In this document: piece after piece, positions 1 through 16,088 of the stretch
Position numbering within the stretch: position 1 is the first letter of the stretch
Layout of the letters: every line of letters begins with the position of its first letter
Source: a virus
Strand: one strand, 5' to 3'
IMG/VR virus record: IMGVR_UViG_3300025759_000746
Location: 1-22,900 of that record
Length of the DNA stretch: 22,900 nucleotides
Notes under the pieces: generated by a model
Database searches by the model: none
Told to the model about the DNA's origin: nothing
The model's input: the letters and a program-made list of their open reading frames with translations, nothing else
Position numbers and translations under genes: made by a program

Positions 1-440
1 TCTGTTGCATCACTTAAGGTTGTAATTGAATGTTCATGCAAATAATACGCTTTAAAGATTTCAGCGTCAAACCAACGTATTTCCTGCAAGATAAGAAAAA
101 CCGCTTGTATATGGTTTTCTATTTCTAAATTGTTTTTTTTCTCGTCGTAAGATGTTTCAACAAGTCGTGTTAAATCGTATTCGTCAACGTACAATTTCTG
201 TAAACGCTTGTATTTATTATAGTACGGTGTGCGATTACTAAAGCCACAAATTTTAATTGCGCGTGCCATGTATTTGAACAGTTCGTCACGCTCACAAAGT
301 CCTTGTAATTTCTTTTTCCGTACTAATTCTAAGTACAGATCATTGACTAAATCATTTCCATTTTCTGCACCTACAGTTTTATTTGCTATACGCACAAGGT
401 CTTCATAATGTCTTTTAAAGAACCTTTCAGCGCAACTCAT
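1..440 (-). CDS. Sigma-70-like (ECF-type) RNA polymerase sigma factor, partial (C-terminus off window)
   Basis: I translated this from an ATG at 438-440; the reading frame stays open to the window edge (about 146 residues). An N-terminal helical block (FFKRHYEDLVRIANKTVG, then NDLVNDLYLELV) looks like sigma region 2. After a basic linker, the segment around residues 108-146 (VFLILQEIRWFDAEIFKAYY, then HSITTLSDAT) has the look of a region-4 helix-turn-helix, whose recognition helix would lie beyond base 1. Small sigma-like proteins of this layout are common in Bacteroidetes phages. The ATG overlaps the stop of the NinG gene (ATGA), so the two are translationally coupled. By position, last in the early operon, it may switch on late genes, as Q does in lambda; that role is inference. 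It could also be another small HTH regulator. Confidence 0.7.
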   Translation of the reverse strand, partial: MSCAERFFKRHYEDLVRIANKTVGAENGNDLVNDLYLELVRKKKLQGLCERDELFKYMARAIKICGFSNRTPYYNKYKRLQKLYVDEYDLTRLVETSYDEKKNNLEIENHIQAVFLILQEIRWFDAEIFKAYYLHEHSITTLSDAT

Positions 441-835
441 AGCAACTTTAACTTATCCTGAAAGTATTTACGCAACTGCACCATTTCATCCAAACTCATG
501 TCAAAAGTTTTGTTGCTCATTTGCAATATCTTTTCGGCTGTTCCCTCTCCGTAAACAGCATCTAACCGCTTTGCAAATATGTATTGTTGCCCCCCTAAAA
601 AGCCGTTGCATTTCTTACATTGGGGCTGAACATTGGTTAAACCCTCTGATGGCTTGTATAACCAACGCGTCGCTTTTTTTGATCGGGTTATGAAATGCCC
701 GCAATCGGCGTTGCGAAATGGAATTTTTATAGAACAGGTAAAACACGAGACGTAACCGGCACTATCTGCATTGCTACGTCTCACGTATTCACTTAGAACT
801 TTGTCTAACTTCTTTGTTTCCTGTGCTTTACCCAC
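437..835 (-). CDS. ninG: NinG/Rap-type recombination nuclease
   Basis: A 132-residue protein with the cysteine/histidine pattern of phage NinG (lambda Rap), a structure-specific endonuclease that acts on branched DNA during recombination. The visible motif is C31-x2-C34, then D44-C45-G46-H47-F48, then N68-V-Q-P-Q-C73-x2-C76-N77, which resembles an HNH-like zinc-binding core. A basic N-terminal helix (KKLDKVLSEYVRR) precedes it. The start is GTG at 833-835; there is no in-frame ATG between it and the upstream in-frame stop. It lies 24 bases after the previous gene and overlaps the sigma-like gene by ATGA. Its place after the replication genes matches the lambda nin region. Family assignment is by motif and length; no homology search was possible. 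Confidence 0.85.
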   Translation of the reverse strand: MGKAQETKKLDKVLSEYVRRSNADSAGYVSCFTCSIKIPFRNADCGHFITRSKKATRWLYKPSEGLTNVQPQCKKCNGFLGGQQYIFAKRLDAVYGEGTAEKILQMSNKTFDMSLDEMVQLRKYFQDKLKLL

Positions 836-2712: not shown

Positions 2713-2927
2713 TGTATTCTATTTTCAATTATATCATTGAATTGTGATAGACTCACGTCCTCTAGTTTCAACGGATATAGTAATTGTTTAGACTTTTCTT
2801 TGGTTAGTTGTACGTGTACTTCAAAGGTCACGTGATGTGCATTTGTTCTTGTATCTTCGATACCCGATGTTAGCTTGATATAAATATCTTTTAGTGGTTC
2901 TTTTGTGCAGTTCATTAGACAGTTCAT
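2700..2927 (-). CDS. Hypothetical early protein
   Basis: A 75-residue protein. Its middle, residues about 13-50, alternates hydrophobic and polar residues (LKDIYIKLTSG, then HHVTFEVHVQLT) and suggests a beta-hairpin; the C-terminus (LEDVSLSQFNDIIENRIQWE) is helical. The start ATG at 2925-2927 shares its A with the TAA stop of the SSB-like gene (TAATG), so its translation is probably coupled to SSB. A second ATG lies four codons downstream. I do not recognise a family. Being directly downstream of SSB hints at a replication or repair accessory role, which is inference only. Confidence 0.5.
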   Translation of the reverse strand: MNCLMNCTKEPLKDIYIKLTSGIEDTRTNAHHVTFEVHVQLTKEKSKQLLYPLKLEDVSLSQFNDIIENRIQWEN

Positions 2928-3424
2928 TAGAATGGTAAGTCGTCGTCGTTAGCCATTTGTGAAGCCCAATATGATTCCACTAAATCTTCATGCTCAAACC
3001 GTGGAAACGTATCGCGTGCTTTTAACAACACGTTAGATAATCGGCATACTTCACGCAAATAAACGTTCATGCTTTCCGGCGTAACAGGACGCGTAATTGC
3101 ACCTATTGATAATACCGCTGTTCTCATTGCCCATGAACGCTCAATGCGTTCTGTAGTTGCCGGATCAAAACCGCTAGGTGCGTTTGTGTTTTTCGCTTCG
3201 TATCCTACTTTTTCTACTTTGCCCCAACTGCCTTTAGGATTACTACCGTTGACCGTGTATTGCGCGTCGTCGCCCGCTTTAAACCTTGGTTCTTGTGTTT
3301 TGTGCAACGCTGACAATACCATGCCGTCTTCAAATTCGTATTCAAATTTGTACAATAAACTTCCGTTGTCGGGGGTATACGTTCCGATACCCTGAACACT
3401 TTTTACTTTGCTTACCTTTTTCAT
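2927..3424 (-). CDS. Single-stranded DNA-binding protein analogue with DDDLPF tail
   Basis: A 165-residue protein whose last six residues are DDDLPF, closely matching the acidic tip of bacterial SSB (DDDIPF in E. coli) that recruits replication and repair partners. Residues about 8-75 alternate strand-like segments (VQGIGTYTPDNGSLLYKFEY, EDGMVLSALHKT, DAQYTVNGS, GKVEKVGYEA) compatible with an OB fold, and residues 95-145 are helical. The sequence is not obviously canonical SSB, so it may belong to a divergent phage SSB group. It starts at ATG 3422-3424, overlapping the previous stop (TAATG). In the cell it would coat single-stranded replication intermediates. Function rests mainly on the tail, length and neighbourhood. 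Confidence 0.65.
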   Translation of the reverse strand: MKKVSKVKSVQGIGTYTPDNGSLLYKFEYEFEDGMVLSALHKTQEPRFKAGDDAQYTVNGSNPKGSWGKVEKVGYEAKNTNAPSGFDPATTERIERSWAMRTAVLSIGAITRPVTPESMNVYLREVCRLSNVLLKARDTFPRFEHEDLVESYWASQMANDDDLPF

Positions 3425-3684
3425 TACTTCTTGTTTTTAAAGTTTTTTTTGTGTGTTAATATGGCATTGCCATAGATAAATTTTCCTGCTTCAATTGACG
3501 CTATGTGATTAATTGACAAACCTTTCTTTAAGCCCTGATCACATACTACTAGCACATAGTCTTTTGTCAATGCCTCTACCGCTTGCATATCACCTCCAAC
3601 TATTTCGCGCATTTTGTCCATGCTTAATTCTAGATTATGTACTTGCGCTGTATTATCAGTGTAATAAACCCTCGTCCAATGCAT
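3424..3684 (-). CDS. Small protein resembling DUF3846
   Basis: An 86-residue protein from ATG 3682-3684, which overlaps the preceding stop as TGATG; an in-frame GTG one codon upstream is less likely. The order of elements MREIVGGDMQAVEA, then DYVLVVCDQGLKKGLSINHI, then FIYGNAIL recalls the DUF3846 family, in which a short residue-rich segment is followed by a polar 'GL...N..A' stretch and a glycine-containing strand. The C-terminus is very basic (KKNFKNKK). DUF3846-like proteins are common in phage and plasmid genomes and have no established function. It lies just before SSB in the early operon. The family match is from memory of the pattern, not a search. Confidence 0.5.
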   Translation of the reverse strand: MHWTRVYYTDNTAQVHNLELSMDKMREIVGGDMQAVEALTKDYVLVVCDQGLKKGLSINHIASIEAGKFIYGNAILTHKKNFKNKK

Positions 3685-3959
3685 CACTTTTCAATTTCGG
3701 ATTGTACCGCTTCTTGTATTTTATCCCACGATAACAAATGCGATAGGTAGTCAGCGTAATGAGTTATATCTAAGTGTACGTGATACTTAGTATCGTTTGC
3801 TAATGGTATCCAACCGCACAAAAGAACTTTGTTTATTTCTGTAATTGCGCTGTCAGGCGGTACATCGTAATCATTGCTTGGACTTTCAGGTTCATGTGTA
3901 TACTGAACTTCAATCCACATATCCTCACTGAGGTTTATGTACGTTACATCATTTTTCAT
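3684..3959 (-). CDS. Hypothetical early protein
   Basis: A 91-residue acidic protein. The first half holds strand-like segments (VTYINLSEDMWIEVQYTHEP), a polar loop (SPSNDYDVPPDS) and a second strand pair (INKVLLCGWIPL, YHVHLDITHY). The C-terminal 25 residues form a helix (LSWDKIQEAVQSEIEK). The paired beta segments followed by a helix suggest a compact soluble fold. There is no membrane segment, signal peptide or catalytic motif that I recognise. It overlaps the upstream gene by 11 bases and the downstream gene by one, so it is part of the operon driven from 4471-4502. Confidence 0.5.
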   Translation of the reverse strand: MKNDVTYINLSEDMWIEVQYTHEPESPSNDYDVPPDSAITEINKVLLCGWIPLANDTKYHVHLDITHYADYLSHLLSWDKIQEAVQSEIEK

Positions 3960-11112: not shown

Positions 11113-12153
11113 TTAAAGTACAGTTGACAATGCACAAACAACAGTGTCAGTAGGGATACCTACTTGTACACCGCATCCAAAACGCATTACAATCTTGACG
11201 TTATCTGATCCGTCGAATTGCCATGCGTCAATATATCGAGCCGTTGCGTAATCCGTACCCAAATTAGAACCTACAACAAGGTTTTCTTCATAAGTCAAAA
11301 CCAATGATTGAGCCGGCATACCGGGGCAAACGTGAATTGGAATACCCAAATATTGCAACCCGTCAAACGCTTGGTTAGTTGATTGCAAATTAACACCTTG
11401 CAAAGAACCCGACGTTGCCAACGCGCTCATGTATTGACCCGCCAACTTTGTACCGCAATAGTACGCTACGTCAGGCTTGTTCAAAATAGCCGAACAATTG
11501 TCCACGGCTTTGTCATAGGCTAATTGGAATGCACCTGAATTAGTAAGTACACCTGCGCTTGAATCATTGGTAAATCCAGTAGCGGCAACCGCTTGTTCTT
11601 GACAACTCGCTGTTCCCAAAATAGACGCGTTGTAACCTGCGTTATCAAACACACCGTCGTTAGAAAGGAAACCTTTTTGTCCAGTTGCCATACCGCCCGT
11701 CCAAATTCCGTTCTCAACGCCTTGTGCAGTATATCCGGCTACAGTTGCCATTGCAAAGTTTTGGAACTCTGTTGAACCTGCGCCCATGCTTTCACGCGCT
11801 CCAGTCATACCCGCCCACGTAGGAAGCAATGTACCACGGCACAATTCTTCCATTACTGCAAGATCGGTTAGTTCAAGTACGCGCTCGCCCAATGTCAAAC
11901 TATCACTGTCAGTCCAATCACAAGATGCCGCTACAATTGTACCGCTACTTGTAAGATTGCTTAGTACCGCTTTATTTTGAAGCCCGTCAATTTGACGAAC
12001 ATAATTGTTAACCAACGTGTCCGCACTCTTTAACGCCGGTGCAAGAAAAGGCAATGCCAATTCGCCTGCGTACGTGGAGGGGTCGGGATTCAACGTTGGA
12101 TTGGCAAATTGTCGCCGACGCATTGCCCGATTATTCATAACTCCGTAACTCAT
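11113..12153 (-). CDS. Major capsid protein
   Basis: A 346-residue protein of the size and composition expected for an HK97-fold capsid subunit: few charged residues, many Ala, Gly, Thr and Asn. The first 30 residues are basic (NNRAMRRRQFANPTLNP) and may be removed or arranged inside the shell. Later segments include LTDLAVMEELCRGTLLPTWA, the AYDKAVDNCSAILNKPDVAY helix, GLQYLGIPIHVCPGMP and ARYIDAWQFDGSDNVKIVMR, which correspond in style to the spine helix and P-domain strands. ATG at 12151-12153 overlaps the stop of the scaffold-like gene (ATGA). Fold assignment is inferred from context and length; protein sequence alone would not prove it. Confidence 0.75.
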   Translation of the reverse strand: MSYGVMNNRAMRRRQFANPTLNPDPSTYAGELALPFLAPALKSADTLVNNYVRQIDGLQNKAVLSNLTSSGTIVAASCDWTDSDSLTLGERVLELTDLAVMEELCRGTLLPTWAGMTGARESMGAGSTEFQNFAMATVAGYTAQGVENGIWTGGMATGQKGFLSNDGVFDNAGYNASILGTASCQEQAVAATGFTNDSSAGVLTNSGAFQLAYDKAVDNCSAILNKPDVAYYCGTKLAGQYMSALATSGSLQGVNLQSTNQAFDGLQYLGIPIHVCPGMPAQSLVLTYEENLVVGSNLGTDYATARYIDAWQFDGSDNVKIVMRFGCGVQVGIPTDTVVCALSTVL

Positions 12154-12689
12154 TTTTTGTAATTATTCATAATTTCGATTGCCCGCGCTGTAGATTTAGG
12201 CAATCCGTTCATGTTAGGTTGTGCAAATTGCTGACCTTGTGATGGACGGTTCCTAACGGGTCGGCTCGCGGGTGACGCGCCAAACTCCCGTAGTTGCTCA
12301 CGCAACTCTCTGTTCTCCCTTTGCAAACGACGTAGACGACGTTCTGTCATCATTTCAACTCGTTCAGCTTCGCTAAACCGTCGGTTGCGTACTTCACGCC
12401 GTTCTGCTCCCATCATACGGTTGCGACGTGAATAGCCACGACGCGCACGCCGTGCTTCAACTTTTGTTTCTTCAGTCACTGTTTCTGTTGTTTCTACTTC
12501 GCCTTCACCTGCATTTAGTAAATCCATAGCGGTACTATGCACGGCTTCAGCTTGTTCTGCTGACAGCCCCATGTCAACAAGGATTGATACAAATTGATCG
12601 TGCAAGTCGGGACTTGTTTCTTCCACGATTTCGGTAGTCTCGGTTGTTGTTTCCTCAACTACATCTTCTTCGAACTTTCGTTTTCTCAT
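12150..12689 (-). CDS. Scaffold-like capsid assembly protein
   Basis: A 179-residue, highly charged protein. The N-terminal half is acidic (EEDVVEETTTETTEIVEETS), the middle has a hydrophobic helix (FVSILVDMGLSAEQAEAVHS) and the C-terminal half is basic and helical (RRARRGYSRRNRMMGAERRE, then ERRLRRLQRENRELREQLRE), ending in a glutamine- and proline-containing tail. This bipolar coiled-coil layout directly before the major capsid gene is typical of scaffolding proteins. The frame is open to 12740, but I take ATG 12687-12689, directly after the TCTATATATTAA element; the longer form would translate that leader. It overlaps the capsid start by ATGA. Confidence 0.65.
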   Translation of the reverse strand: MRKRKFEEDVVEETTTETTEIVEETSPDLHDQFVSILVDMGLSAEQAEAVHSTAMDLLNAGEGEVETTETVTEETKVEARRARRGYSRRNRMMGAERREVRNRRFSEAERVEMMTERRLRRLQRENRELREQLREFGASPASRPVRNRPSQGQQFAQPNMNGLPKSTARAIEIMNNYKK

Positions 12690-12690
12690 G

Positions 12691-12702
12691 TTAATATATA
12701 GA
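12691..12702 (-). promoter_or_regulatory. Shared AT-rich leader element (copy 1)
   Basis: The minus strand reads TCTATATATTAA, then C and ATG at 12689. It is identical over twelve bases to 10464-10453. A related sequence, CTATATATAAATAG, lies upstream of the protease gene in the 16089-16121 gap. It opens the scaffold-capsid-tube block that ends at the 10489-10520 terminator. Confidence 0.45.
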
Positions 12703-12714
12703 AAGGTGTTTATT

Positions 12715-12987
12715 TTATTCGTAATATTCGTAATATGCACGTTCAGCAGTGTTTTGAAACACTTCCCAATCTATGTCACGAAAATCATACGGTGCTATTT
12801 TATCGAGCGTTTCCAGTGCGTGTTGATAATCGTACGCTAAAATTAAATCCTGTACGGTATCTAAGTTTTTTACAAATGCTAAATCGTAGTCATAGTCAGC
12901 CCTAAATTCATCAATCATGGCTAACAGTTCGTCGTGCGGTTCGTTTACAAAGCCATCCCAAATACGCGATATTAACGGTTTCCACAT
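12715..12987 (-). CDS. Small acidic protein
   Basis: A 90-residue, strongly acidic and aromatic protein. Helical segments dominate: HDELLAMIDEFRADYDYDLA, then FVKNLDTVQDLILAYDYQHA and LETLDKIAPYDFRDIDWEVF, ending in AERAYYEYYE. No membrane segment or motif is visible. It is the last of the run of small acidic genes and lies 25 bases before the scaffold gene, the gap containing the shared AT-rich element. The stop of the upstream gene and this ATG are four bases apart. Function unknown; its acidity fits a DNA-mimic, capsid-internal or regulatory protein, with no way to choose from sequence. Confidence 0.55.
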   Translation of the reverse strand: MWKPLISRIWDGFVNEPHDELLAMIDEFRADYDYDLAFVKNLDTVQDLILAYDYQHALETLDKIAPYDFRDIDWEVFQNTAERAYYEYYE

Positions 12988-12991
12988 ATCG

Positions 12992-13210
12992 TTATTTAAT
13001 TACAACTTTATTGTATCCGTAATATTCGTACAACTCACTTAACAATTCATCTAATTCATATTCATCTAACGGATAGGTTGTTATTTGCACATTGTAGTTA
13101 TTCGTGTACCTATAACTGTCTACATAAGTAGATAAACCCAAATTGTCTATGTCGCTTTTAACGTCTGTTAAGTCGTCGTGGTAAATAATAATAAATTCTA
13201 TTTGAGCCAT
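12992..13210 (-). CDS. Small acidic protein, beta-alpha-beta-beta-alpha-beta type (A)
   Basis: A 72-residue protein with net charge near -10 by hand count. The predicted order is strand (IEFIIIYHD), helix (LTDVKSDIDNL), strand (TYVDSYRYT), strand (YNVQITTYP), helix (YELDELLSELYEYYG), strand (NKVVIK), a ferredoxin-like beta-alpha-beta-beta-alpha-beta arrangement. The two neighbouring genes upstream (13215-13457, 13469-13708) can be read in the same order and look like diverged paralogues. The stop of the previous gene lies four bases before its ATG. No known family recognised. Confidence 0.55.
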   Translation of the reverse strand: MAQIEFIIIYHDDLTDVKSDIDNLGLSTYVDSYRYTNNYNVQITTYPLDEYELDELLSELYEYYGYNKVVIK

Positions 13211-13214
13211 GTTT

Positions 13215-13457
13215 TTAAATATATTCTACGTTATAACCCGCACGATACAATGCCGATTCTACTTCATCAACTTGCGTATTCGTAGCGTTGTAGAATAGAA
13301 TTTCTACTTCCCAACCGTTTACGTAACCAACTGTTGTAATCTTTACATTACCCCTTGGATCAACAATAGATTCACAAAAGTCTAACAGTTCGTCTGCTCT
13401 CGATGAACTTGAATCGGGGGTATCAAAAGTAACTAGTAGTTCGTGCGTTAATGCCAT
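13215..13457 (-). CDS. Small acidic protein, beta-alpha-beta-beta-alpha-beta type (B)
   Basis: An 80-residue protein, net charge near -10 by hand count. The order of elements repeats that of its neighbours: strand (HELLVTFDT), helix (SRADELLDFCESIV), strand (NVKITTVGYV), strand (WEVEILFYN), helix (TQVDEVESALYRAG), strand (NVEYI). The segment VEILFYNATNTQVDEVESAL lines up with VQITTYPLDEYELDELLSEL of the next protein. The leader TAAACAACATAGAAATG (13471-13455) is one of six copies of the cassette leader, with two changed positions. Function unknown. Confidence 0.55.
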   Translation of the reverse strand: MALTHELLVTFDTPDSSSSRADELLDFCESIVDPRGNVKITTVGYVNGWEVEILFYNATNTQVDEVESALYRAGYNVEYI

Positions 13458-13468
13458 TTCTATGTTGT

Positions 13469-13708
13469 TTAAGTAAGCATAAATGTTGATACTTCACCTC
13501 CGTACAATTCGCTTAACTCCATAATTACCATGTCATATTGATAACCGTTTTCAAATTCTACCACGAATCGCACACCGCCCGTTGTTGTTTCCGCATCTAA
13601 AATGTCTTCTTCGATGCCTCCATTATATGTGACAACTTCAATTACATCGTTCATAACAGTAGTGAAACTCTTATTTGTTCCGATCATAATGTCTGCTTTT
13701 ATATACAT
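13469..13708 (-). CDS. Small acidic protein, beta-alpha-beta-beta-alpha-beta type (C)
   Basis: A 79-residue protein, net charge near -11 by hand count. The frame is open for 20 more codons upstream, but these would translate the repeated leader, so I start at ATG 13706-13708, directly after TAAACAACAGAGAT. Elements: strand (YIKADIMIGT), helix (FTTVMNDVIEVVTY), strand (EEDILDAETT), strand (GVRFVVEFEN), helix (YDMVIMELSELYGG), strand (VSTFMLT). This matches the order in the two downstream genes. No signal peptide or known domain. Confidence 0.55.
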   Translation of the reverse strand: MYIKADIMIGTNKSFTTVMNDVIEVVTYNGGIEEDILDAETTTGGVRFVVEFENGYQYDMVIMELSELYGGEVSTFMLT

Positions 13709-13719
13709 ATCTCTGTTGT

Positions 13720-13953
13720 TTAAATGCCTGCTGTAATTGTTGCGTAATCGCGGTCGTGCTGTTTCCAATCAATTAAACGCAAGCCAACTTCTTCTAGCAC
13801 TTCTGTAAAACCGTCCTCGTCGATTGATGCGCCTCGCATATCTTCAATGTCAGCCACAAAATAGTCACCGTTCGCTCGTATAAGAGTCATCTCTATTCCG
13901 TAATAATCTAATTCCCGTTGTAAATCGGCGCGTTCTTGTTTTGTGTAATCCAT
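13720..13953 (-). CDS. Small acidic protein
   Basis: A 77-residue acidic protein. It begins with a helix (YTKQERADLQRELDYYGIEM), then strand-like TLIRANGDYFVADIED, a loop (MRGASIDEDG) and a helix (FTEVLEEVGLRLIDWKQHDR), ending in YATITAGI. It may be a rearranged relative of its beta-alpha-beta neighbours, but I cannot align it convincingly. The start at 13951-13953 is preceded by the exact cassette leader (13967-13951) whose TAA is the stop of the 50-aa gene. Function unknown. Confidence 0.55.
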   Translation of the reverse strand: MDYTKQERADLQRELDYYGIEMTLIRANGDYFVADIEDMRGASIDEDGFTEVLEEVGLRLIDWKQHDRDYATITAGI

Positions 13954-13964
13954 ATCTCTGTTGT

Positions 13965-14117
13965 TTAATATAGGCTTCGCTCGATTGCGTCCAGTTGATC
14001 AAAATATTCTTGTAATGATTCCGCTAACAATGTATCACCTATTTTGCGTGCCTCATACATAGCTGTGTCTAATTCTGAAATTGCGCCTGACAAGGCAATA
14101 CTAATTTTTTTGTACAT
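13965..14117 (-). CDS. 50-residue helical protein of the repeated-leader cassette
   Basis: A short gene, ATG at 14115-14117 and TAA at 13965-13967. The protein is helical and mildly acidic: YKKISIALSGAISELDTAMY, then EARKIGDTLLAESLQEYFDQ and LDAIERSLY. Two heptad-patterned helices suggest a helical hairpin that could oligomerise. It is preceded and followed by exact copies of the leader TAAACAACAGAGATATG, which is strong evidence that this short frame is a gene. No family recognised. Confidence 0.6.
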   Translation of the reverse strand: MYKKISIALSGAISELDTAMYEARKIGDTLLAESLQEYFDQLDAIERSLY

Positions 14118-14128
14118 ATCTCTGTTGT

Positions 14129-14386
14129 TTAGCCGAATGAAACAATGTCCAAAACTCGCGTCAACAAGTTGTCAAGAATTGATTTTTCTTCACCACGCAA
14201 TTTTCTAAAGTGGTCATTGCGAATATGACGAATAGTTAGCATAAAATCGTTCTCACTATAAAAATCATCATACGCAATATTTAACAATTGTACAGCATCC
14301 AAAAATGTCGCGCTAGGTTCGCCAATGCTGTAAGCTAAGTCAACCTCACGGTCGATAGCATCAGCTATTCTTTCATAATTAATCAT
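14129..14386 (-). CDS. Small helical protein of the repeated-leader cassette
   Basis: An 85-residue protein, largely helical: NYERIADAIDREVDLAYSIG, then ATFLDAVQLLNIAYDDFYSE, a basic segment (IRHIRNDHFRKLRGEEKS) and ILDNLLTRVLDIVSFG. Unlike its neighbours it has a clear basic patch in the middle. It is flanked on both sides by the exact cassette leader; the TAA stop at 14129-14131 is also the first triplet of the leader for the 50-aa gene. No known domain is visible. Confidence 0.55.
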   Translation of the reverse strand: MINYERIADAIDREVDLAYSIGEPSATFLDAVQLLNIAYDDFYSENDFMLTIRHIRNDHFRKLRGEEKSILDNLLTRVLDIVSFG

Positions 14387-14397
14387 ATCTCTGTTGT

Positions 14398-14643
14398 TTA
14401 TCCTATTTCTGTGACCTCACAGTTGTAATCGTCTTCTAAAATAACGCCAATGGAACTAAGCGTGTTTTCCCAATAGTAGTTCCTGTCAATCACTTCAATC
14501 TTCACCTCGATCATATCAGTATAATGATCAATATGATACGCCTCGTCAATTTTGTTTAATGGTTCACCCATATCTTCCGTAGCTACTTCATAGAACCATT
14601 GTTCAAGGATTGAAGCGGGGGCACCTGTTACTTCTAAAATCAT
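14398..14643 (-). CDS. Small acidic protein, possible relative of the beta-alpha-beta group (F)
   Basis: An 81-residue acidic protein. Elements: strand (MILEVTG), helix (ASILEQWFYEVATEDMG), strand (KIDEAYHIDHY), strand (DMIEVKIEVID), helix (YWENTLSSIGVILED), strand (NCEVTEIG). The order resembles proteins A-C encoded at 12992-13708, although the sequence similarity is weak. The leader is a variant, TAAACAACAGAATACAATACT before ATG (14664-14641), seven bases longer than the standard one. Function unknown. Confidence 0.55.
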   Translation of the reverse strand: MILEVTGAPASILEQWFYEVATEDMGEPLNKIDEAYHIDHYTDMIEVKIEVIDRNYYWENTLSSIGVILEDDYNCEVTEIG

Positions 14644-14661
14644 AGTATTGTATTCTGTTGT

Positions 14662-14946
14662 TTATCGGTAACCTTCCGCACCCTCTCTAACAGCGTCGGC
14701 AATTTCTCTCCAATCTACCGTGCCAAAGAAATTGCTTACTAAATCATTAAAGATTCCGTCTCTAATACTACTCGCTTCGCTAACGTCGTATACCCAATCT
14801 TCGCACCATTGAGCATCGCAATTTTGCAATTCGCTTACATCCCACGATCCGACTTCTTCGCTCATTGCTTCTACTAAATCCCAAACGGAAACAAGCCACG
14901 TTTCATAGTTAGCCCAACCGTTATAACCAAATTGTCTCTTTTTCAT
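14662..14946 (-). CDS. Conserved 'YNGWxNYETW' small acidic protein
   Basis: A 94-residue acidic protein with the opening FGYNGWANYETWLVSVWDLV, which I recognise as the signature of a widespread uncharacterised family of phage, plasmid and cyanobacterial proteins (DUF7249-like, from memory). The family usually ends in a 'VDW.EIA' segment, here FGTVDWREIADAVREG, so the protein appears complete. The centre is rich in Asp, Glu and Trp. Its ATG follows directly on the TAA stop of the preceding 56-aa gene (TAAATG). No function is established for the family. It heads the repeated-leader cassette. Confidence 0.65.
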   Translation of the reverse strand: MKKRQFGYNGWANYETWLVSVWDLVEAMSEEVGSWDVSELQNCDAQWCEDWVYDVSEASSIRDGIFNDLVSNFFGTVDWREIADAVREGAEGYR

Positions 14947-15131: not shown

Positions 15132-16088
15132 TTAAGTAGTGAAATAACCAAATTTATTTCTCATTTTCGCTTTCATGTAAGACTTATAGAATTTCACTTT
15201 CGTTTCGTTCAAAGCTACTTTTTCAGCGTCTTCAATTTCTTCTTCAGCTTCTTCTATACTCTTTACTTGTCCATCGTACTCAACCAATACGTTTTGGAAT
15301 ACTTCTAACTCTACCCCGTTTTGCGTTTTGTATTTGCCGTCCTTAACGTCTACAGGCATTCCTTTTTCGTCAAGCTGTACAACCGATGCCCCCGCTGAAA
15401 ACGTGTCGTCTTCAGTTGCTAACACTACACCCGTATCTAACGTAATCTCACTGTAGAATTTTTTTAACCCCATCATGGCTTTAGCTTGTTGCCATAACCG
15501 ATCAGCAAATGTTCTTTCTTGTTTAGTCATAGTCGATGCTTGTTGATTCATTTTCTCGATTCGGTCTACAAAGTATCCCTCAATACTAAACCCTCGCACT
15601 TCACCGCTTTTAACTTTCTGCCACATATCCTCATTGTCTACACGTACGCGAACCATCCATGTACCCTTTGGCATACTCATTCCGTACGCTTTGGACTTGT
15701 CCATTTCGGGGTCATCAACAATCCATGATTCAACTACGTGTACATCTTCAACCGGTTCTTGGTGTTCGAATGTATGTTCGTTAGTGCGGTTGTGCTTCAT
15801 GTACAATTCGCTTGCTAACTTGACAGTATCTTGACTAAAGTAAACGTCGTATTCTTCACCCGTTACGTCGTCGAATCTAACTATCTCTTTATCAGGAATT
15901 AACGCCGCACCTATCAACGTACGCTTGTCTTCATCGACTTGCGCTAGACTATACGCACGGTGTTTGTTTTGCTTACTAAAGAAAACAAATTTTTCTTCAA
16001 TAGCGGGGTGCTTTACCAAACTGATTGCCTCTACCGGTAATCCCTCGTATTCGTCACCAATGATTAGTTCTATTAGTTTTCGGCTCAT
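15132..16088 (-). CDS. XkdF-like prohead protease (peptidase S78 type)
   Basis: A 318-residue protein. Residues 10-175 resemble the XkdF-like prohead protease domain: SLVKHPAIEEKFVFFSK, RTLIGAALIPDKEIVR, GEEYDVYFSQDTVKLA, HNRTNEHTFEHQEPVEDVHV, VESWIVDDPEMDKSKAYG, GTWMVRVRV and EVRGFSIEGYF. Candidate catalytic residues are His105 or His109 and Ser168. Such proteases cleave scaffold and capsid N-termini during head maturation. The C-terminal 130 residues (EVFQNVLVEYDGQVKSIEEA, then a charged helix) may be a scaffold-type extension. Unusually, ten small genes separate it from the scaffold and capsid genes. The 33-base gap before its start contains CTATATATAAATAG. Confidence 0.75.
   Translation of the reverse strand: MSRKLIELIIGDEYEGLPVEAISLVKHPAIEEKFVFFSKQNKHRAYSLAQVDEDKRTLIGAALIPDKEIVRFDDVTGEEYDVYFSQDTVKLASELYMKHNRTNEHTFEHQEPVEDVHVVESWIVDDPEMDKSKAYGMSMPKGTWMVRVRVDNEDMWQKVKSGEVRGFSIEGYFVDRIEKMNQQASTMTKQERTFADRLWQQAKAMMGLKKFYSEITLDTGVVLATEDDTFSAGASVVQLDEKGMPVDVKDGKYKTQNGVELEVFQNVLVEYDGQVKSIEEAEEEIEDAEKVALNETKVKFYKSYMKAKMRNKFGYFTT

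Follow-up and report, generated by a model that had tools for sequence, protein, structure and literature searches.

A repeated leader bounds exchanged single-gene cassettes in arrays beside the head-protease gene of uncultured phages

The tiny-gene array of the window

The window, by which we mean the whole 22,900-nt stretch that was analysed (the 22.9-kb IMG/VR phage record IMGVR_UViG_3300025759_000746), contained a run of genes of 50-94 aa, all encoded on the minus strand, as are the junctions and flanking genes described here. This array was flanked upstream by a head maturation protease-like gene (F1; 15132-16088) and on its other side by scaffold and capsid genes. A conserved gene present in nearly all relatives (F6; 12715-12987) lay between the array and the scaffold-like gene (F3; 12150-12740), which had no family hit and was assigned solely by its position between F6 and the major capsid protein candidate (F4; 11113-12153), a match to the virion structural protein phrog_1623.

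The 17-mer TAAACAACAGAGATATG, which we have designated the leader, joined five consecutive tiny genes of the window. Four copies were exact (14384-14400, 14115-14131, 13951-13967 and 13706-13722) and one, TAAACAACATAGAAATG (13455-13471), had two mismatches. At every intact junction the upstream gene ended with the TAA and the next gene began with the ATG, as an earlier sequence-only reading of this DNA had described. That reading had also counted six junctions sharing the leader, four of them exactly; the four exact copies and the two-mismatch copy were confirmed, whereas the sixth junction, TAAACAACAGAATACAATACTATG (14641-14664), was degraded. This junction, which holds the stop of 14662-14946 and the start of 14398-14643, retained only the first 11 leader bases, TAAACAACAGA, before diverging, and its stop-to-start gap was 18 nt instead of 11 nt. 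Across the whole window six matches to TAAACAACAGAGATATG were observed at up to three mismatches against 0.14 expected by chance, and one of these (2484-2500), far from the array, was a probable chance hit.

In order from the protease, the array was adjoined by an acidic DUF7249-like gene (F18; 14662-14946), followed by the gene behind the degraded leader (F51; 14398-14643), which encodes an acidic protein of 81 aa with a relative in L109 (L-numbers label the phage contigs and loci that were compared). The next gene (F39; 14129-14386; 85 aa, pI 4.6) recurred in L017 and L065 as a leader cassette and in L232 behind the different leader described below as type B. It was followed by a 50-aa gene of helical type (F32; 13965-14117), a leader cassette in L116, L049, L045 and L055, and by a 77-aa gene (F40; 13720-13953) with a near-identical cassette in L120. 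No relative of the 79-aa gene F68 (13469-13708; pI 4.1) was found. The last leader-bearing gene (F41; 13215-13457; 80 aa) was a leader cassette in L114 and leaderless in L120, and the small acidic gene that followed it (F52; 12992-13210) had no leader in the window and was a leader cassette in L020.

Outside the array, the window encoded a NinG/Rap DNA-junction endonuclease (437-835, minus strand), a candidate recombination helper. A conserved 214-aa protein (860-1504; phrog_35728), present in all 10 genomes checked, adjoined NinG and the replication initiator. A 165-aa protein (2927-3424) with an acidic DDDLPF tail and no Pfam hit is possibly a single-strand DNA-binding protein. A DUF3846 gene was located at 3424-3687; one cassette representative, apparently of family F37, which includes a cassette of L062 (L062:85-339), also matched DUF3846.

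Leader arrays and their proteins across IMG/VR

The exact 17-mer was present in 66 IMG/VR stretches, 35 of which had 2-7 copies, and arrays reached eleven junctions once mismatches were allowed. All leader-bearing genomes were those of uncultured phages known from metagenome assemblies. The array was an operon beside the head-protease gene whose small genes were mostly unrelated and encoded very acidic proteins, and in 18 records searched whole nearly all leader copies were on one strand within one array, the few strays having three mismatches. Over 195 junctions, 14 leader bases were conserved at 90-99%, with conservation ending sharply at both edges, and the stop-to-start distance was exactly 11 nt in 165 of 194 junctions. 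A leader 2 nt shorter, TAAACAACAGAG-ATG, preceded the F35 cassette found in some array gaps; no tRNA genes were found in the array gaps of the 14 loci scanned. The tape-measure, capsid, scaffold and portal genes had no leader, and the protease gene carried one only where the array ended at the protease. A larger gene, F16 (about 272 aa), was a leader cassette in L046, L010, L035, L038 and L047 and stood leaderless after F6 in L114, L111, L116, L120 and L065.

A DNA search of annotated phages returned no match; by protein, the nearest isolates were the Nonlabens phages P12024S/L. The host-genome search gave one multi-copy hit, L090 (JAFMIA010000163.1), a 5-kb contig in a 'Pseudomonadales' MAG, which is probably a mis-binned phage since its array equals that of the phage contigs L019 and L068. 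As every sequence is a metagenome assembly, the arrays might be artefacts of short repeats. The same arrays were recovered in separately named assemblies, however (the window, L024/L108, L057 and L060; L019, L068 and L090), and a 17-bp repeat is shorter than the k-mers usually used in assembly, which makes the chance of an artefact close to negligible.

The 184 leader cassettes formed 88 families with a median length of 78 aa, 42 of which occurred in at least two phages. Nearly all of 86 family representatives were strongly acidic (median pI 4.1); the single basic one was the gene after the probable chance match. Profile-profile comparisons, which covered 2204 of the 3486 family pairs, gave four links above 85% probability, none of them, among the pairs compared, between two leader cassettes of the window itself. 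The earlier description of the genes between leaders as unrelated or distantly related therefore agrees with the profiles, by which similarity was undetectable among the window leader cassettes compared. Searches of Pfam and PHROGs with the cassette families returned only families of unknown function and weak hits. Two families were modelled with fair to good confidence: F40 (window 13720-13953) had a predicted alpha-beta-beta-alpha-beta-beta fold, mixed alpha/beta (pLDDT 86.5), and F13 a ferredoxin-like layout, and neither model had a confident PDB match. The F13 model leaves room for a ferredoxin-like layout shared by some families, as might be expected if one gene and its leader had been duplicated in tandem and the genes had then diverged beyond recognition. 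The very few links between families, and the finding that identical genes have different neighbours in different phages, make this origin extremely improbable.

Cassette exchange and leader types

Same-family cassettes with at least 85% DNA identity formed 73 pairs, and both neighbours differed in 66 of them; the phage and cassette pairs counted here and below are not independent. Backbone genes were often only 60-68% identical between phages sharing such cassettes. Averaged over the 66 pairs, identity rose from 0.41 at position -15, one base before the leader, to 0.97 at -14, its first base, and at the downstream boundary dropped from 0.88 at the G of the next ATG to 0.38 at the following base, so that the fall to background took no more than one base at either leader edge. 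Shared cassettes stood in random order (22 concordant and 19 discordant pairs) and none of 10 adjacencies among shared cassettes was kept. The sequence-only reading had offered a boundary repeat of a shuffled gene-cassette array as one explanation, to be checked by searching other phages for the 17-mer with varying gene content. The 66 stretches bear this out: related phages with the same leader carry different genes, shuffled in content and order, and the boundary-repeat explanation is strongly favoured.

Individual comparisons illustrate this pattern. The window cassette at 13720-13953 (F40) aligned with that of L120 at 258 of 262 bases, the alignment ending exactly at both leaders, and the backbones of the two phages were 64-68% identical. 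L017 and L065 had 99.93% identity along 2986 bp reaching to a leader, and at that leader L065 carries an additional cassette. L019 and L049, with backbones 97.9% identical, carried 6 and 10 cassettes respectively, three of them in common. Leader variants almost never travelled with their cassette (1 of 40 variant pairs identical), so the crossover position within the leader is unreadable; fast mutation of the leader is a possible reason. An additional feature of L049 is its 401-aa protease (L049:10344-11546), whose C-terminal extension resembles F41 (70% DNA identity over 190 bp) and is possibly a cassette fused to the protease.

A capsid-based search revealed relatives in which other leaders are repeated at similar places, and further arrays emerged when two of these leaders were used for scans. 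With the window's leader as type A, the others were designated type B, TAAACCACAACGATATG, and type C, TAAAACAACTTAAAGATG, each repeated within its own array. After removal of duplicates there were 31 A, 9 B and 12 C arrays. Within leader types, 76 of 168 homologous cassette pairs shared at least 85% DNA identity (A-A 60/142, B-B 8/13, C-C 8/13), compared with 0 of 75 between types; homologous cassettes thus do occur across types, all 75 such pairs being below 85% identity. Where backbone protein identity was below 68%, a recent cassette was shared by 40 of 397 same-type phage pairs and 0 of 648 different-type pairs (Fisher p 4e-18, a value that overstates the case as the pairs are not independent). 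The 386 phage pairs with diverged backbones yielded 56 recent matches in arrays (63 kb) and two outside them (352 kb), both of the latter in the protease next to the array. Exchange was therefore concentrated in the array and seen only where both arrays had the same leader; arrays that differ in leader gave no sign of recent exchange.

Leader type might stand in for host or habitat, in which case same-leader phages would infect the same host and co-infection, rather than the leader, would limit exchange. A link of this kind between leader type and host is conceivable. Co-infection, however, offers the whole genome, yet exchange was concentrated in the array (56 matches against two), and type A spans a deep split of the capsid tree that also holds types B and C, which renders this explanation quite improbable. 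Type A was not one clade: label A has to change 4 times on the protease tree, 2 of these changes being forced by well-supported branches, and 5 times on the capsid tree, with 4 forced in this way. Types A and B were found in the same metagenome, 3300021197 (L020 and L281). Type-C leaders were accompanied, at other junctions, by a second leader type in at least two contigs, 3300028022_000008 and 3300031839_000507, so it is the array and not the phage that has a leader type. Two leader types at different junctions of one contig were seen in the contigs of L213/L310 and L204/L318.

Start-region features, possible mechanism and related systems

Start regions independent of the Shine-Dalgarno (SD) sequence in Bacteroidota are Kozak-like and A-rich, with A at -13, -12, -6 and -3 (PMC6847099). 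The leader is likewise A-rich, with A at -13, -12, -11 and -6 as in the determinants of Flavobacterium johnsoniae (PMC6847099), so that three of the four determinants (A-13, A-12, A-6 and A-3) are present. In contrast, its -3 base was G in 97% of junctions and not the A that helps initiation in Flavobacterium, and its near-invariance over 14 bases far exceeds a start-site preference. As it fits several of the determinants, the leader probably also acts as an SD-independent start region, besides being an exchange boundary. The five window junctions analysed for folding were unstructured, folding no better than most shuffles (z -1.46 to 0.38).

Flavobacterial promoters have a box of the TAnnTTTG type (PMC9723704). 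A box of this class, TATATTTG, was located just upstream of the first leader in five type-A phages (L014, L017, L120, L009 and L018), from which position the array mRNA could begin with the first leader. This array-start promoter was clear only in phages whose array directly follows the tape-measure gene, and not in the window. At later junctions TAnnTTTG occurred within 60 nt upstream in 1 of 187 (the scan covers the host-type -7 box). The flavobacterial-type box, together with the Nonlabens phages as nearest isolates, suggests that the hosts of the array phages are Bacteroidota.

These features could be explained if the leader were a signal for translation or stop/start coupling only, that is, the preferred SD-independent start of an operon of tiny genes, maintained because selection acts on expression, with random breaks shuffling the genes and only exchanges with good junctions surviving. 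The A residues, the fixed 11-nt stop-start gap, the lack of structure, the TATATTTG box that would place the first leader at the mRNA 5' end, and a similar sequence, TAAACAATAGAGATATG, before tiny genes in other, larger phages are all consistent with it. We nevertheless consider it unlikely: backbone genes, that of the capsid included, lack the leader, G at -3 is near-invariant though A is better, related arrays repeat quite different leaders, a diversity that a common ribosome does not call for, and with random breaks no halt of exchange between leader types would be expected. The host-specific translation signal proposed by the sequence-only reading thus fails as the sole explanation, since backbone genes are without the leader and its copies in whole genomes are nearly confined to the array, and survives in part as the probable start-region role.

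The arrays resemble integron gene cassettes, which are head-to-tail single-gene units with a constant boundary and variable content and order, moved by the tyrosine recombinase IntI at folded attC sites. Here too the units are head-to-tail, promoterless and single-gene, with boundaries sharp to one base, and the leader might serve as the core site for an integrase-like enzyme encoded by phage or host. Pfam scans identified no integrase, resolvase or transposase among the non-structural ORFs (at least 90 aa) of four genomes, three of which have direct terminal repeats; no IntI-type recombinase was found among these ORFs, for which a host enzyme could substitute. The five window junctions had no attC-like folded site with inverted repeats, and leader types differ freely between arrays. 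Integron-like site-specific recombination is thus unsupported, and we regard it as very improbable.

The simplest account of these sequences is recombination between identical short joints. A cassette consists of a single small acidic gene from ATG to TAA, joined to the next by a constant TAA-ACAACAGAGAT-ATG in which the stop of the upstream gene is followed by 11 nt of unstructured, A-rich start region and then by the next ATG. Since the junctions are all alike, two phages in one cell could recombine between any pair of junctions, and any such exchange would leave genes intact, spacing right and the start site working. With all junctions the same and exchange harmless, arrays could gain, lose, swap and reorder single genes as the structural backbone stays put. 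A dedicated recombinase would not be needed; the likely route would be short-homology recombination, perhaps aided by the phage NinG/Rap, known from lambda as a junction endonuclease, which the window shared with 9 of the 10 genomes examined. Pfam recognised no annealing protein (RecT, Erf), and 17 bp is short for RecA-type recombination, which counts against exchange by leader homology. While the leader-bounded exchange of cassettes is well supported, we infer the biochemical route, including the leader as recombination substrate, its part in driving initiation and the role of NinG. Overall we estimate a probability of about 0.75 that the leader is both an SD-independent start region and a homology joint for recombinase-free exchange of single-gene cassettes.

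The nearest known systems are the PeSL motifs and SAS repeats, although an earlier description elsewhere is possible, the literature covered being open-licence PubMed Central. PeSL motifs of T4-like phages were reportedly described by Arbiol in 2010 and Comeau in 2014. They are a conserved intergenic sequence said (PMC4503421) to mediate gene shuffling between related phages, and the leader is similarly associated with shuffled small genes. PeSL is a unit of promoter and stem-loop, whereas the leader spaces stop from start by 11 unstructured nucleotides within a single operon, with no promoter within each repeat (for the host-type -7 box scanned) and no stem-loop at the five window junctions; exchange here, moreover, follows leader type. 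The SAS/ESAS of cluster K mycobacteriophages are short asymmetric repeats directly before the starts of many gene families, mostly in one orientation and sometimes holding the upstream stop, for which homologous recombination was raised as possible by the authors (passages of PMC3203893). The leader also directly precedes the start codons of many families (88 here). According to the same passages, SAS is GGGATAGGAGCCC with a Shine-Dalgarno core and is spread through the genome in 11-19 copies, whereas the leader, TAAACAACAGAGAT, has no AGGAG, is SD-free and is confined to the array; the leader bounds exchanged genes, and bounding by SAS is not reported in those passages. The leader differs from both as a stop-to-start joint that is unstructured, SD-free and restricted to arrays, recent exchange taking place only among arrays that have the same leader.

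Passages of PMC4704812 place the anti-CRISPR loci of Pseudomonas Mu-like phages beside the head protease/scaffold gene, where the cassette proteins are also placed; both are mix-and-match small genes in a fixed position, and a constant junction leader is not described in those passages. The cassettes may therefore form a pool of host-interaction genes, possibly for counter-defence. Falling somewhat short of even odds, we tentatively propose a recombinase-free system in which the start region doubles as the joint and leader 'dialects' decide which phages trade, the leader being a tag of exchange compatibility and the small acidic counter-defence genes a common pool open to reassortment. A counter-defence role for this pool is in itself a plausible guess, which we hold a little more loosely still.

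Leader-bounded trade in single genes suggests a way for marine phages to swap parts without a dedicated recombinase. Whether phage mosaicism arises through random breaks and selection or through recombination at conserved joints is a long-standing question, and it becomes directly testable here because many joints of differing type can be seen, and recent exchange tracks joint type and not backbone relatedness. The leader is also a simple bait sequence for collecting many families of small acidic phage proteins. Among other phages, one of them 88 kb, TAAACAATAGAGATATG was found before consecutive tiny genes in L129 (L129:11399-12007), L159, L161, L142 and L168, and in L129 the TAG within this variant doubles as a stop.
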